Below, in pieces: positions 50,818 to 57,705 of a stretch of DNA of 64,000 bases. Source of the stretch: a bacterium (GTDB lineage: Bacteria; JAMCPX01); the NCBI GenBank assembly GCA_021792615.1, contig JAJYUJ010000011.1:1-64000 (forward strand), written 5' to 3'. Each line of letters starts with the position of its first letter. Position 1 is the first letter of the stretch. Position numbers and translations under genes: made by a program. The notes below the pieces were generated by a model that worked only from the letters and a program-made list of their open reading frames with translations, was not told the origin of the DNA and made no database searches.

Positions 50818-53346
50818 ATGAACTTTAAAACGCGGATAACGATTGCAAATTCACTCATAACCGTCATTGCCGTCGCTATTATATATTATGTAGCCATTAA
50901 AACCATAACCTTCACTCTGGAAACCATCAAATTCATTTCCATTGTGACGATATTTATTGTCATCATAGCCTTGACCATACAGTACCTCGCGAGCTTGAAA
51001 CCATTTACGATCATAAACGAATTCGAGAAACGGTTGAAAAACAACACCATGGACGAACGGTTTACCATGACAGCTTTTTACACCGCTGTTTCTTTCCCAT
51101 TATATTTTATGAGTGTTTCCGCTGCACAATGGTATTTCTCTTCCATAATTTATTTCATACTTCTCTATGGCTTTACGCAGGCAGGATTAATTACCGCCCT
51201 AAAAACCGTATTTGCCATTATCAGCGGTGCAACCATTGCGAACATATTCCAATATTTTGTTTATCAACGGTTGACCGAACCTCTCGTTATAACCATTCAA
51301 CAGCATTTGAAAGATGCGGAGATCAACATAAAAAAGAGAATCGGTGTTTTTACAAAGATCTTTTTCAGTGCTTCCCTGCTGATCATTATCTTTCTTATAT
51401 TTGCAAGGACTATCAGCATACAGCTCATGACCGATGCTCTTCAGTCAAACGGCATCGAGTCGGCAAAACTGGACATGGCAGGCTCTCTGCCAAAAGTGGA
51501 TTCCATTCTGTCTCAGGGCCTTTCCGCAGCACAAACGTCATTGGAATTATCCAGGATGAAGCTCGGGTCGCACGGTTATATGCTTCTGATGGACAGTTCA
51601 TACGATGATGTCTTCAATATATCCGAGAACTATGCCGGCGTTGTGCCTTTAAAAAAGCTGGCCGCAAGAGATGTATACAATGATCAGACCATCGATGCCA
51701 CCTTGATCAAGATGCCGATCAGCAAGGAACTCTACCTCGTCGGTGTCTACTCATGGTCGGATTACGCCGGTATATTGGCCAAATTCGCCGACGCAATTAA
51801 CTGGCTGATCCTTACTGTTATACTTGCACTGGTCATGGTGTCCCTCTTCGTTACCCTGGACATCTATCTTCCGGTCAAGGCAATCGTCTCTGCAGTGGAA
51901 AGGCTTGCCAACGGAGATTTTTCCACTCAATCAGGCCTGTTTGTAGAAGACGAAGCCGGAACGGTGTCAAACAACATCAGGAAGACAACGGAAAATATAA
52001 AGTCCGTCATCAAAACAATAAAATTATCAAGCTCGAATATTGCTGACATTTCGGATAAAATGATGAATTCGATAGACCTGACAAAGGAAAATGTTCTCAT
52101 CCTCGACAAGGAAATAAAAAGCAATGCAGAGATCATCGCATCGGTACAAAAAACACTCGACCAGCTCATGGAATACATCGAAGGACTGATAAACTCCATA
52201 AATGATACAATCATAAACAGCGATAAAATGCAGGAATTTATGGACAGCAACAAAGACGTATTCTCCGGATTAAGCGGCTCGATTACCTCCATTATTGCGT
52301 CAAACAACAATCTTCTCGAAACCATAAAAAATATACAAAAAACTACCGCAGAGAGCATCAACAGCGGTCCGGTAAACAATTTGGATTATCTGAGAACGGC
52401 AACCATGCAAAATGAACAGGCCGTCAAGAGATTGGGAATTATCACTGAATCTCTGACAGACAATATCAACAGACTGAACGCGGAGATAAGAAAAGGCGGA
52501 AGCAACAAACAAAAAATCGATACCATCTTCAACAGTTCTCTTGCCACGGTTTCCTCCCTCAACGATAATGTAGAAAGAATAGTAACCGACCTGAACAAGA
52601 TAGACCTTGTCATCGATGATACGAATTTACTGGCTATGAATTCCTCGGTCATATCCGCTCAGGCAGGAAAGGCAGGCAGAGGGTTCGACGTTGTATCCGA
52701 TGAGATTACAAAACTTGCAAGTGTAACACAGACAAAAATCCTCGAGGTAAAAAACCTGACAGAGCTCCTCGTAAAAGAAAAAGATACGATAAAGAGCAAT
52801 ATATACGAGAAAAAGAGATTCATAGATAACGTAGACAACAGGTTGAACTCTTTCCGTGAAGAAACAGGCGTTGTAACAAACCTTGTTCTCCGTCTGAAGG
52901 AATCTTACGAAAACATTGTAAAAACCACTAACAACCTGCACTCGAAATGGGAAAAATTATCGACCGATATGATGGCAGAAAAGGAAATGCACCATCTCAT
53001 GAAGACCAAGCTCATGTACGTAGAAAACAGTGTGGCGGACATAAACAAATATTCCGCCGATCTGAAAGATGTTATCGATACTATTGTGCATAAATGGGGG
53101 GGCTACCGGGAAATCATGGGACAAATACCCGCTGAGCTTTCTACAATCAATACACCTGCAAATACGATCAACGGTTACATGAGTGTCATCAAAACAAAAA
53201 CATCGGAGATACACGCGATACTTGACAGCATATCCGAAACATCGCGGCACCTGAACAGGCAATTGGGCCATCTCGATATACGGAGTGATATCGAAATCGT
53301 ATCGGATAAAATAAATGAGGAACCAAGAAGGTTCAGGATATTATGA
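50818..53346 (+). CDS. Divergent methyl-accepting-chemotaxis-like receptor 1
   Basis: This 842-residue membrane receptor has N-terminal hydrophobic segments (about residues 9-155), another near 180-200, an extracytoplasmic sensor of about 120 residues (SHGYMLLMDSSYDD, Cache-like), a final helix near 325-350, a HAMP domain (LPVKAIVSAVERLANGDF) and a long coiled-coil signalling region. The hairpin tip near residue 597 reads DDTNLLAMNSSVISAQAGKA, a recognisable but altered version of the MCP tip: the usual E of AAIEAARAGE is lost. CheA/CheW contact is therefore uncertain. No che gene is in the window. It overlaps the next receptor by 4 bases. Confidence 0.8.
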   Translation: MNFKTRITIANSLITVIAVAIIYYVAIKTITFTLETIKFISIVTIFIVIIALTIQYLASLKPFTIINEFEKRLKNNTMDERFTMTAFYTAVSFPLYFMSVSAAQWYFSSIIYFILLYGFTQAGLITALKTVFAIISGATIANIFQYFVYQRLTEPLVITIQQHLKDAEINIKKRIGVFTKIFFSASLLIIIFLIFARTISIQLMTDALQSNGIESAKLDMAGSLPKVDSILSQGLSAAQTSLELSRMKLGSHGYMLLMDSSYDDVFNISENYAGVVPLKKLAARDVYNDQTIDATLIKMPISKELYLVGVYSWSDYAGILAKFADAINWLILTVILALVMVSLFVTLDIYLPVKAIVSAVERLANGDFSTQSGLFVEDEAGTVSNNIRKTTENIKSVIKTIKLSSSNIADISDKMMNSIDLTKENVLILDKEIKSNAEIIASVQKTLDQLMEYIEGLINSINDTIINSDKMQEFMDSNKDVFSGLSGSITSIIASNNNLLETIKNIQKTTAESINSGPVNNLDYLRTATMQNEQAVKRLGIITESLTDNINRLNAEIRKGGSNKQKIDTIFNSSLATVSSLNDNVERIVTDLNKIDLVIDDTNLLAMNSSVISAQAGKAGRGFDVVSDEITKLASVTQTKILEVKNLTELLVKEKDTIKSNIYEKKRFIDNVDNRLNSFREETGVVTNLVLRLKESYENIVKTTNNLHSKWEKLSTDMMAEKEMHHLMKTKLMYVENSVADINKYSADLKDVIDTIVHKWGGYREIMGQIPAELSTINTPANTINGYMSVIKTKTSEIHAILDSISETSRHLNRQLGHLDIRSDIEIVSDKINEEPRRFRIL

Positions 53347-55883
53347 TAAAAGCAAACCGGATTTTGACGATATTTTATTTGATTCTCCTGTTTGTGGCAA
53401 TCAGCATATTCAGTGCCCTGCTTTCGACCACCCGGCTCATAACGATAAACGACCATATCGTAAACATTGTCCTTATCCTTGTTTCCACTTCAATTGCCGT
53501 TCTTATTTTTTATTTCGTCAACCCGTTAAGCCTCCGGAAAGTAAAAGACCTTCTTGACGAAACCTACTCGGCGTCTTCAGAAAAACATATAGCTGTTCTC
53601 GTACGGTATCCGTTCGCCATACTGCCGCTGACCGTCATGACGGAATTGGCAGGAATGTTCGCATATCTTATTACCGGCAGTATTGCGAAGATAATAGAAT
53701 TAGACGGTACACTATCCTCGCTCGGGGGCATCGCGGTTACCTTTCTGTTTGTGTTGATCATCGGGGAACTCTCGCAGATTTATGTATTCAAGATCGTAAC
53801 GAACACGTCTGCCTCAAAAGCCATCAGGAAGTTAAACATCATCGAATTGAAAAGCATCTATATTCCCATAAAGTATAAGCTCATTGGAGTCTTCAGTATC
53901 ATTTCGGTAGCTGCATTTATCATCGTTGCGTACGCTGTTTTCAATAATGCCGACCGGTACATAAAACAGAGTTTATACAATAACACCATGAAATCGGCAT
54001 CACTCATCGCCGGTACGGTCGACCAAAATCCGAACGCAGACAGCATATTAAAAGGAATAGCTGGATCTTCCGGGGGCACCTACAGGATCTATGTATACAA
54101 TCTTCACAGCGGCACGATAAAGTCTTATTCCGGGGCAACGCTCGGCAGCCGGATAATAAAGGGATTAAGCACAGAGAACATGGTGCCGGATACAGCGAAC
54201 AAACAACTGCTGTTTTCCCTCCATAAGCCGCTCTTGATCGACGGGTCACCCCATCTTCTTGTTATCGGAGCCAGAGACAGTCTTTACACGAAGCTTTTGT
54301 ACCGTTTTATTTCCAATATGACCATAGCGGGCATCTTTATACTCTTCATAGTGCTTATCACAACATTCCTCATATCAAATGACATCGCGTCCCATGAAAA
54401 GAAACTTGCCGATTACTCTGCGGCCCTCTCAGGAAATAAATTGTCCCAAACACCGGGATTGTTTTCAACCGATGAACTCGGAATGATCGCTTTAAACTTA
54501 AGAACACTCATGAGGACATTCAAAGAATCAAGGATCCGTACGAACGAAAACGTGTCCGGCATGAACAGCCTGATAAGTGCAACGTTCAAAAATATTGCCG
54601 CAGTAAGATCAACCATTACGCAGCAATCGAAACACACGGACGATTTGTTCGGTATCATAAATTCTATAAAAGACATCGCTCAGCAGATAACCGATCTGAG
54701 TGTGCCGTTCAGGGCGAGAATAGAAAAGGACAGCGAAGCCATATTTCGCGCGATACAACGTAATAAGGAAACGAAATCTTCCGTGACCGCAGCATCAACG
54801 CGCATTACGAGGACGTTAAAATTGATCGAGAAGGATGTGAATGCATACGAAGACATGAAATATACTATAAACAAACTGAAGACCATACTCCTTTCGTTTG
54901 ATTCTACCACGCAATCGTACACTTCGGATACAGGCGCCGCAAACACGCTGCTGAACGGATTTACAGGTTTAATGACCGATATAAAGAAATCGAACGTCAG
55001 CGGCATGGAACTTACGAAAGATATGGAAGTTATAATAAACGAAACGCAGAGTATAGCGGAAGGCGTACTTTCCCTTTTATCCTCTTTCCTTTCCCACATT
55101 CAGCAGTCAGATGAAATGCTGGGTATGATAAACAACGTTGCGGAGCGTACAAACCTCTTGTCCGTCAACGCCTTTATACTCGCATCTTCACCCCAAACCG
55201 AAGGAAACAACTTCAGGGTCGTGGCGGAAGAGATCAAGAGGCTCGCAGGGAGAGCAAGAACCGGCTCCAAAGATATCTCGGATTATATAACAAAAGTGCG
55301 AAGAAATGTTGATGAGGTTTCTTCCGGCATAAAAGACATCAACGGCATGTTTACGGGATTGAAACAATCCATGAGTGATATTAATTCCATTACGCAGAGG
55401 ACCGAAGAGCTCTCGAACTCGGCAATCGATATAGCCGCTCATATCATCGGCGGCACTGCAGGTAAAACCGTGCAGAGGAATGCCGGATCCGATTCTTCAG
55501 TGAATGCGCACAGCATGGAGATTGTCTCGAAACTGACGGTAGACATAGCGGCCACTTTAGACAGTTTAAAGGGCATCGGCCGTGTTTTCGGTCAAATCAA
55601 AGACACACTCATAAATTTAGCCGAGATCAATAATGCCCATGATACGACATTACTATCCATAAGCAACGCTGTCGAGAATATAAAAACATTTATAGGCTAT
55701 ATAAACGACAGCCTTGCAATCGACATCAAAGAGCAGGTAGCTTATTCCTCGGATTCCGCAAAGGAGTTAATAGACCATATAAGAAATAATGAACAGAACA
55801 TTTCAGACCTCGATACCATCATGAACCAGCTTATACAGGAGCTTGATCTCTTAAAGGAAAATATAAATTTATTCATAGTTTAA
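53343..55883 (+). CDS. Divergent methyl-accepting-chemotaxis-like receptor 2
   Basis: This 846-residue protein has the same layout as the receptor before it: several N-terminal membrane helices, a helix near residue 185, an extracytoplasmic sensor (about 205-320; YRIYVYNLHSGTIKSYSG), a helix near 325-345, a HAMP-like stretch and a coiled-coil region. The tip near residue 597 reads AERTNLLSVNAFILASSPQT, and only TNLL and the following RVVAEEIKRLAGRA resemble MCPs. It is further from the consensus than receptor 1. The start overlaps the previous stop (ATGA), so the two are made together and may act as a pair. recO follows after 4 bases. Confidence 0.78.
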   Translation: MIKANRILTIFYLILLFVAISIFSALLSTTRLITINDHIVNIVLILVSTSIAVLIFYFVNPLSLRKVKDLLDETYSASSEKHIAVLVRYPFAILPLTVMTELAGMFAYLITGSIAKIIELDGTLSSLGGIAVTFLFVLIIGELSQIYVFKIVTNTSASKAIRKLNIIELKSIYIPIKYKLIGVFSIISVAAFIIVAYAVFNNADRYIKQSLYNNTMKSASLIAGTVDQNPNADSILKGIAGSSGGTYRIYVYNLHSGTIKSYSGATLGSRIIKGLSTENMVPDTANKQLLFSLHKPLLIDGSPHLLVIGARDSLYTKLLYRFISNMTIAGIFILFIVLITTFLISNDIASHEKKLADYSAALSGNKLSQTPGLFSTDELGMIALNLRTLMRTFKESRIRTNENVSGMNSLISATFKNIAAVRSTITQQSKHTDDLFGIINSIKDIAQQITDLSVPFRARIEKDSEAIFRAIQRNKETKSSVTAASTRITRTLKLIEKDVNAYEDMKYTINKLKTILLSFDSTTQSYTSDTGAANTLLNGFTGLMTDIKKSNVSGMELTKDMEVIINETQSIAEGVLSLLSSFLSHIQQSDEMLGMINNVAERTNLLSVNAFILASSPQTEGNNFRVVAEEIKRLAGRARTGSKDISDYITKVRRNVDEVSSGIKDINGMFTGLKQSMSDINSITQRTEELSNSAIDIAAHIIGGTAGKTVQRNAGSDSSVNAHSMEIVSKLTVDIAATLDSLKGIGRVFGQIKDTLINLAEINNAHDTTLLSISNAVENIKTFIGYINDSLAIDIKEQVAYSSDSAKELIDHIRNNEQNISDLDTIMNQLIQELDLLKENINLFIV

Positions 55884-55887
55884 CACC

Positions 55888-56634
55888 ATGCATCTTTTCA
55901 CCACAGAGGGTATCGTTATCCACAAATTGAAATATCTTGAATCCGATTTAATCGTAACCATTTTCTCGATAAAAGAGGGCAAGATAAAAGCAATTGTAAA
56001 GGGAGGGGTAAACAGCAGAAAAAGGTTTCCCGGAGCTTTTGAAGTCGGGAATATCGGCGAGTTCGGATTTACGGCCAAAAATCCATACCAGCTTATGTAT
56101 ATAAACCATGCAAAGGTGAATAATTATCTTATCGATCTAAAAAAGGATTACGATAAGATCATGATGTTATTTTATATGGCGGGTATTACCGATGCTATGC
56201 TTATTGAACATCAGAGTCACCCAAAGCTGTTTGAATTTTTGGTTTATACAATCCAATTTCTCGAAAAGAACAAGGCGCTCAATCAGATCAGGCTGTTCTA
56301 CGAATTCCACTTATTAAAGGAAACCGGGTTGCTTCCTGCCATAGAAAAATGCGAATCATGCGGCATGCCGTTTGCCGGTAACCGGGTAAATTTTCTGCAA
56401 CAAACAGGGAAACTGGTATGTGAGTCCTGCATACCCCATAACACCGGATCATTCGCGATACCGGACAATTTATTGCTGCTGATAAAAGCGGTAAACAACG
56501 ACTCTCTCAACATTGACGAATTTCTCATGGTGGATGTACCTCATGCGATGTTCGATATTACAACAAGGCTCATGAGCAATTACATAGATAGACCATTGAA
56601 AATATGGCAGATGATTGATACTATATACTTTTAA
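55888..56634 (+). CDS. recO: DNA repair protein RecO
   Basis: RecO anneals single-stranded DNA and loads RecA with RecR in recombinational repair. The 248-residue protein has an N-terminal OB fold (TTEGIVIHKLKYLESDLIVTIFS), a helical middle, and a zinc finger near residues 154-187 with cysteine pairs CESCGMPF and VCESC. It begins 4 bases after the second receptor gene, which is an unusual partner; co-transcription may be chance. Confidence 0.93.
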   Translation: MHLFTTEGIVIHKLKYLESDLIVTIFSIKEGKIKAIVKGGVNSRKRFPGAFEVGNIGEFGFTAKNPYQLMYINHAKVNNYLIDLKKDYDKIMMLFYMAGITDAMLIEHQSHPKLFEFLVYTIQFLEKNKALNQIRLFYEFHLLKETGLLPAIEKCESCGMPFAGNRVNFLQQTGKLVCESCIPHNTGSFAIPDNLLLLIKAVNNDSLNIDEFLMVDVPHAMFDITTRLMSNYIDRPLKIWQMIDTIYF

Positions 56635-56790: not shown

Positions 56791-57705
56791 ATGAACAAAG
56801 ATTATATTGATAATACACAGATAGACCTCGAGCAGCTCCATGATGATTACTATGGATGGAAACAGCCCGAAAAGCCTAAAATAAAGATACTGACGCCCCT
56901 TATCTTGTTCTGCGTAACATTTATTGCCGTAGTCTTTGCAGGCGCATTTCAGTATGGGGTAAACCCTTTTACCAATTTATCGGAGGCATACAAAGGGCTG
57001 CCCTTTGCACTCATCCTGATGGGTATTCTCCTTTCCCATGAAATGGGACATTTTCTTATGTCCAAACATCACGATGTTGCGGCAACCCTGCCCTATTTCA
57101 TACCTGCACCGAACATACTCGGAACATTTGGGGCATTTATACGCATGAAATCGCCCATACCGGACCGCAATGCACTCGTTGATATCGGTGCAGCAGGACC
57201 GATTGCAGGCTTTGTCATAGCACTGCCTGCCCTTATAATCGGTATCAAGCTTTCTCCTCTTGTACCCATAGCATCCGTAAGCGGCATTACATTGGGGGAC
57301 TCGTTGCTCGTCAAATTTTTATCGTTCATTATAAGGCCGGGCATCCCTGCCGGTTACGAGATAGGACTCAGTCCTATAGCATTTGCTGGCTGGATAGGCA
57401 TGTTCGTCACCGCAATGAACCTCATACCCATAGGTCAGCTCGATGGCGGGCACATTGCATACGCACTTTTCGGCAAATGGTATAATGTAATTGCAAGGAT
57501 TGCGCTTATCACGCTTGTTGTCATGGGTATATGGGGATGGGAGGTATGGCTTTTCTGGGCATTGATTATCCTGATCCTCGGTATCAGGCATCCAAGCCCC
57601 ATGGACCCGTATCAGCCTCTCGACACAAAGAGAAAGGCAATTGCATGGTTTGCGATAATCATATTGATAATAACGTTTATACCGGTCCCATTCTCAGGAT
57701 TGTAA
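56791..57705 (+). CDS. Site-2 protease, M50 family (long type)
   Basis: This 304-residue membrane metalloprotease has HEMGH at about residues 83-87, ending the second hydrophobic segment, and the second zinc motif NLIPIGQLDGGHIAYAL near residue 210. A soluble N-terminal part of about 35 residues precedes the first helix. It matches site-2 proteases with a buried FIPAPNILGTFGAFIRMKSP segment, found widely in bacteria and plants (EGY-like). The substrate is unknown. AAAGGAA lies before the ATG. It is the third S2P family gene in the window. Confidence 0.87.
   Translation: MNKDYIDNTQIDLEQLHDDYYGWKQPEKPKIKILTPLILFCVTFIAVVFAGAFQYGVNPFTNLSEAYKGLPFALILMGILLSHEMGHFLMSKHHDVAATLPYFIPAPNILGTFGAFIRMKSPIPDRNALVDIGAAGPIAGFVIALPALIIGIKLSPLVPIASVSGITLGDSLLVKFLSFIIRPGIPAGYEIGLSPIAFAGWIGMFVTAMNLIPIGQLDGGHIAYALFGKWYNVIARIALITLVVMGIWGWEVWLFWALIILILGIRHPSPMDPYQPLDTKRKAIAWFAIIILIITFIPVPFSGL

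Follow-up and report, generated by a model that had tools for sequence, protein, structure and literature searches.

A conserved pair of long-arm MCP homologues with divergent hairpin tips beside recO in a JAMCPX01 bacterium

The gene pair and its neighbourhood

The window, a stretch of 64,000 nucleotides, carries two adjacent receptor genes followed by recO and a membrane protease gene, all on the same strand.

50818..53346, forward strand: receptor 1 (R1), open reading frame of 842 amino acids, long-arm MCP homologue
53343..55883, forward strand: receptor 2 (R2), open reading frame of 846 amino acids, long-arm MCP homologue
55888..56634, forward strand: recO (Pfam RecO_N/RecO_C), starting 4 bp past R2
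56791..57705, forward strand: M50 family membrane protease (Pfam Peptidase_M50), closing the conserved block

Both receptor frames are intact and co-directional, and they share 4 bp (ATGA), in agreement with the two overlapping receptors described in the initial annotation. The two genes are presumably co-transcribed. The order R1-R2-recO-M50 recurs in relatives as far as their contigs extend, so the pair is indeed found next to recO elsewhere. R1 has orthologues in seven other genomes of the family, which align without gaps apart from one shortened row, and the R1/R2 pair is found in 7 of the 8 other family genomes (R2 being split or cut at contig ends in some). A loss of the pair in the remaining genome (G004) was considered and rejected: this bin is incomplete and also misses recO, so the locus was probably not assembled and the pair is present wherever it was. 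Within the genus, the adjacency and translational overlap of R1 and R2 are constant. Among genera, recO and the M50 protease stay linked to the receptors even though the upstream genes vary, and the protease (78-98% identity) is far more conserved than the receptors themselves. According to public records the relatives are uncultured MAGs which, to judge by the codes of their samples, may come from acid mine drainage or tailings.

Domain architecture and homology of the two receptors

R1 and R2 have the same predicted order of elements, as first described: four N-terminal helices, a TM helix, a Cache/PAS-like sensor, a second TM helix, a HAMP-like linker and a long hairpin. The parts that could be placed are as follows.

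50824..51303, forward strand: four-helix membrane region at the N-terminus of R1, aa 3-162 (from AlphaFold2 secondary structure, at moderate confidence)
51442..51762, forward strand: extracytoplasmic sensor of R1, Cache/PAS-like, aa ~209-315 (Z up to 12.1 against Cache domains in a structure comparison)
51871..51999, forward strand: R1 HAMP-like linker, aa 352-394 (Pfam HAMP 16.9 bits, under the cut-off of 25)
52579..52746, forward strand: tip of the R1 hairpin, aa 588-643, with the tip Asn at residue 608 (most conserved 56-column window, 0.88)
53346..53831, forward strand: four-helix membrane region at the N-terminus of R2, aa 2-163 (from AlphaFold2 secondary structure, at low confidence)
53970..54275, forward strand: R2 extracytoplasmic PAS/Cache-like sensor, aa ~210-311 (Foldseek)
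55107..55274, forward strand: tip of the R2 hairpin, aa 589-644, with the tip Asn at residue 609 (among the most conserved windows, 0.84)

The AlphaFold2 models of the two N-terminal halves have mean pLDDT values of 64 and 57, and in these models the N-terminal helices of R2 end at most 4 residues away from those of R1. Among 386 sampled genomes, the N-terminal region of R1 found no relative outside the family, except through the HAMP end of the query. For the R2 sensor, the best Foldseek matches were the PAS sensor 3cwf (target TM-score 0.66) and, next, dCache chemoreceptor domains. Alignment to Pfam gave a clear result at the hairpin and a faint one at the linker: MCPsignal (PF00015) matches R1 at 66.2 and R2 at 51.7 bits (cut-off 34.6), together with all 8 R1 rows and all 7 R2 rows extending to the tip; HAMP stays under its cut-off in R1, attains E<=0.1 in 3 of 8 R1 orthologues and is not recognised by Pfam in R2. 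Searches of PHROGs and NCBIfam returned only general MCP/coiled-coil or unnamed matches.

The proposed paralogy of the two receptors is borne out by BLASTP (E=5e-10) and by profile-profile comparison (98.7%). The N-terminal halves, taken alone, have no BLASTP similarity and a weak profile similarity. In the tree, the receptors sit on long stems, and grouping R1 with R2 as sisters is not rejected (p-AU 0.47).

The hairpin tips are conserved

The initial annotation described the tips as degraded and placed them near residue 597 in both proteins. They do occupy equivalent positions, with the tip Asn at 608 and 609 instead. The R1 tip string that it quoted is present in R1, and its statement that R2 keeps only TNLL and VVAEEIKRLA is an undercount (R2 still has ERTNLL, the Asn of the tip, FxVVAEEI and KRLA).

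Could the two genes simply be decaying? Their tip residues depart from the textbook consensus, which is what such a reading would draw on. Against it, the genes are open in every family genome with an assembled locus, even in the bins whose contig breaks divide R2, and conservation is highest at the tip. Pairwise identity among orthologues is 0.88 in the R1 tip window (median window 0.55) and 0.84-0.85 in the R2 tip window (median 0.43); outside the tips it lies between 0.3 and 0.6, and orthologues differ overall by up to 59-66%. Between the two closest genomes (G000 and G003), dN/dS is 0.19 for R1 and 0.16 for R2, and neither tip has a nonsynonymous change. In comparisons with two farther congeners, where synonymous sites are near saturation, 2-3% of the nonsynonymous sites in the R1 tip are changed. 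Conservation and dN/dS together rule decay out as an explanation, and we regard it as very improbable. With both tips above the MCPsignal cut-off, the word 'degraded' does not fit them.

Individual residues, in E. coli Tsr numbering, separate the two tips. R1 keeps Ile385, Gln388, Arg/Lys394, Phe396 and Glu402; its invariant departures include Asp374, Met380, Ser382/383/386, Asp397 and Thr404, and position 391 is variable. R2 keeps Phe396, Glu402 and Lys404, departs at Arg374, Phe383, Ser388, Asn395 and Lys/Arg397, and has Pro/His-Gln-Thr in place of Ala389-Gly390-Glu391. About two of the three positions that form receptor-CheW salt bridges (394, 402 and 404; PMC6954272) are retained in R1 and in R2, and likewise in another MCP of the same genome, on contig C38. 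No CheR/CheB methylation motif, strict or loose, was found in the arms of R1 and R2, an absence that is no proof against methylation. Such motifs are usual, not universal, among MCPs: the MCP of the genome's che operon has two strict motifs and the C38 MCP has no strict one.

Loss of Glu385 marks a long-arm receptor class

The trimer lock of E. coli Tsr consists of Glu385 and Arg388' (PMC8144572). Hairpins without this Glu (n=46) all have Ile or Leu in its place, and 39 of the 46 have a HAMP-to-tip spacing of 229-232, a spacing seen in 0 of 21 hairpins with Glu385. This set, whose loci include L018, L022, L162 and L168-L180, was gathered by similarity and contains orthologues of one family, so the sample is biased; of the class members taken from beyond the family, all 20 have Ile/Leu385 together with Gln388. 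R1 carries the class pair as Ile385/Gln388 in 8 of 8 sequences, while R2 has Leu385 with Ser388 in 6 of 6. The idea that both tips strongly match working MCP classes thus holds in part for R1 and not for R2, whose tip is, to judge from these residues, truly divergent.

In the same scan, a spacing of 133 marks the 36H type and 161 the 44H type, a scale on which 231 corresponds to 64H. Twelve heptad classes of MCPs have been listed, 64H being one of them (PMC6943060). Arm lengths (HAMP DExG to tip/post-tip) are 229/234 in R1, 231/237 in R2, 231/234 in the class and in the che-operon MCP, and 231/235 in the C38 MCP, giving 64 heptads in total. Judged by sequence, the missing Glu is a trait of the long-arm (~64H) MCP class.

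As a side observation, long-arm MCPs have Ile/Leu385, Gln388 and Ile403, where shorter-arm MCPs have Glu385, Arg388 and mostly Val403. No paper stating this switch at 385/388/403 was found in the literature searched.

One CheA system in the genome

The initial annotation reported no che genes. This is correct for the surroundings of the pair, with neither CheA nor CheW on contig C21, and it does not extend to the genome (99.55% complete), which encodes a single CheA, two stand-alone CheW, CheR, CheB and four MCPs. The genes for CheA, CheW, CheR and CheB stand together on contig C11 in a complete che operon, so a genome without CheA was rejected. The operon (L081:3452-16671) has an unusual content: a DUF4388-receiver, CheA, an ExeA-like ATPase, two CheW, a long-arm MCP, a zinc-ribbon receiver, a HEAT-repeat protein, CheR and CheB. 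Its order is largely repeated in unrelated genomes (L184, L191, L192 and L194).

The other family genomes with CheW matches have the same set of one CheA and two CheW, and one has a second set. This additional CheA/CheW set (G003:C195:6268-12091) lies on another contig with a Glu385-type MCP, and is either a second system or bin contamination. In a genome of 80% completeness (G001), the pair is present and CheW was not detected. FlhA was not found in the genome under study, and six PilB/PilT/T2SE-type ATPases score over the cut-off.

The tips of the genome's other two MCPs read NAAIIASQSGE (che operon) and NAAIIANQAGE (C38), both without Glu385. MCPs with a Glu385-less tip also occur within syntenic che operons of four unrelated genomes (G051, G022, G157 and G131), in three of which CheA lies inside the fetched stretch. 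Loss of the tip Glu had been taken as loss of CheA/CheW coupling. Because long-arm MCPs without it sit in che operons, in this genome and in unrelated ones, the missing Glu is no argument against coupling to CheA.

R1 and R2 as receptors of the CheA array

We think it probable that R1 and R2 serve as accessory receptors in the one CheA-CheW array, whose genes lie on contig C11, and that they are diverged members of the long-arm (~64H) class. Their arm lengths equal those of the cell's other MCPs, so they most likely feed its one CheA system. Work on Geobacter and Myxococcus has argued for joint assembly of receptors that share a length class (PMC2577667, PMC3945109). In the proposed mechanism, the single Cache/PAS domain of each receptor would sense an envelope or extracellular signal, which would pass through the HAMP-like linker and along a hairpin of ~33 heptads per arm. 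The tips of R1 and R2 would lie in one plane with those of the other two MCPs, which would allow them to join mixed trimers of dimers and there to bias the shared CheA. Since recognisable methylation sites are lacking, receptor adaptation would probably play no part in their signalling. Given the six ATPases and no FlhA, the output is presumably the behaviour of type IV pili or some other function unrelated to flagella. Several findings count against array membership, which we infer together with coupling to CheA: the pair lies outside the che operon, both receptors have no methylation sites, R1 has Thr404 and a variable 391, R2 has Ser388 and Pro/His-Gln-Thr at 389-391, and G001 has the pair with no CheW detected. 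The matched arm length could also be inherited rather than selected.

A refinement compatible with this explanation is an obligate hetero-oligomer of R1 and R2 (a heterodimer or a mixed trimer) with mutually adapted tips, which would join the CheA array as a unit. Such a partnership would fit genes that in the genus are always adjacent and overlap in translation, as well as the like architecture with helix ends a few residues apart and the possible sister relation in the tree. The tips also have opposite charges at the same positions (Asp374 in R1 and Arg374 in R2, Asp397 and Lys/Arg397) and a further contrast at 383 (Ser and Phe). As proof of a heteromer the charges were rejected: two opposite-charge positions arise at about 0.3 in a shuffle test, so they stay a lead only. 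MCPs, moreover, generally form homodimers, and the N-terminal halves have little in common in sequence. We hold the hetero-oligomer to be plausible without calling it probable.

The divergence of the R2 tip keeps a heteromeric or a CheA-independent role in play. Receptors that work with other signalling partners, independently of CheA, would explain why no che genes lie beside the pair, why the R2 tip has lost the turn and several class-invariant residues, and why methylation sites are missing from both. We consider this unlikely, as no part of the proteins is more conserved than the tip, which also keeps several CheW-contact positions, the arms are as long as those of array receptors, and the sole CheA operon in the genome employs a receptor with the identical Glu loss. 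Alternatively, R1 and R2 may enter trimers of dimers without coupling to CheW/CheA, and damp or bias their neighbours. The features that are kept at the trimer level (matched length, L377, L378, N381, F396, and I385/Q388 in R1) would suit such modulators, as would the altered coupling positions (T404 and variable 391 in R1, PQT at 389-391 in R2). Glu402 and at least one of 394/404 are kept, though, and structural and signalling membership look alike in the present data; we rate the modulator role as quite improbable. An obligate heteromeric, methylation-free receptor with co-adapted tips, entering the array without standard CheW coupling or bypassing CheA, is in our view rather doubtful.

Accessory membership of the array remains our preferred reading. 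As proteins, R1 and R2 belong to an ordinary kind, of which they represent an unusual and conserved variant. They form a paired branch of the long-arm MCPs that probably does not adapt and most likely feeds the single CheA system. From a tip unlike that of textbook MCPs one should not conclude loss of function, since a whole length class without the Glu-Arg trimer lock still sits in che operons. Four receptors and one CheA make a small natural system in which to ask how far tips can diverge and still join an array, and the pair lets one ask whether two different MCP chains act as a single unit. If true, the heteromeric reading would mean a receptor unit built from two different MCP chains.

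Comparison with known receptors

The che-operon MCP on C11 is like R1 and R2 in arm length, in Ile385 at the tip (Leu in R2) and in its layout past the sensor. It differs by its two strict methylation motifs, its Glu391 and its clear HAMP, and by lying beside CheA, CheW, CheR and CheB. With the 64H class at large, R1 and R2 share the arm length (231 from HAMP to tip, ~234 post-tip), the MCPsignal match and the absence of Glu385, and R1 also the Ile385/Gln388 pair. The two receptors differ from this class by additional family-invariant tip changes, by the N-terminal four-helix membrane region and by having no methylation motifs. Compared to E. coli Tsr/Tar (36H), they have the same hairpin fold, as judged from sequence, and the same N381, L378, F396, V398 and E402. 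However, each arm is ~14 heptads longer, the Glu385-Arg388 lock and the methylation sites are absent, and the sensor is Cache-like rather than a four-helix bundle.
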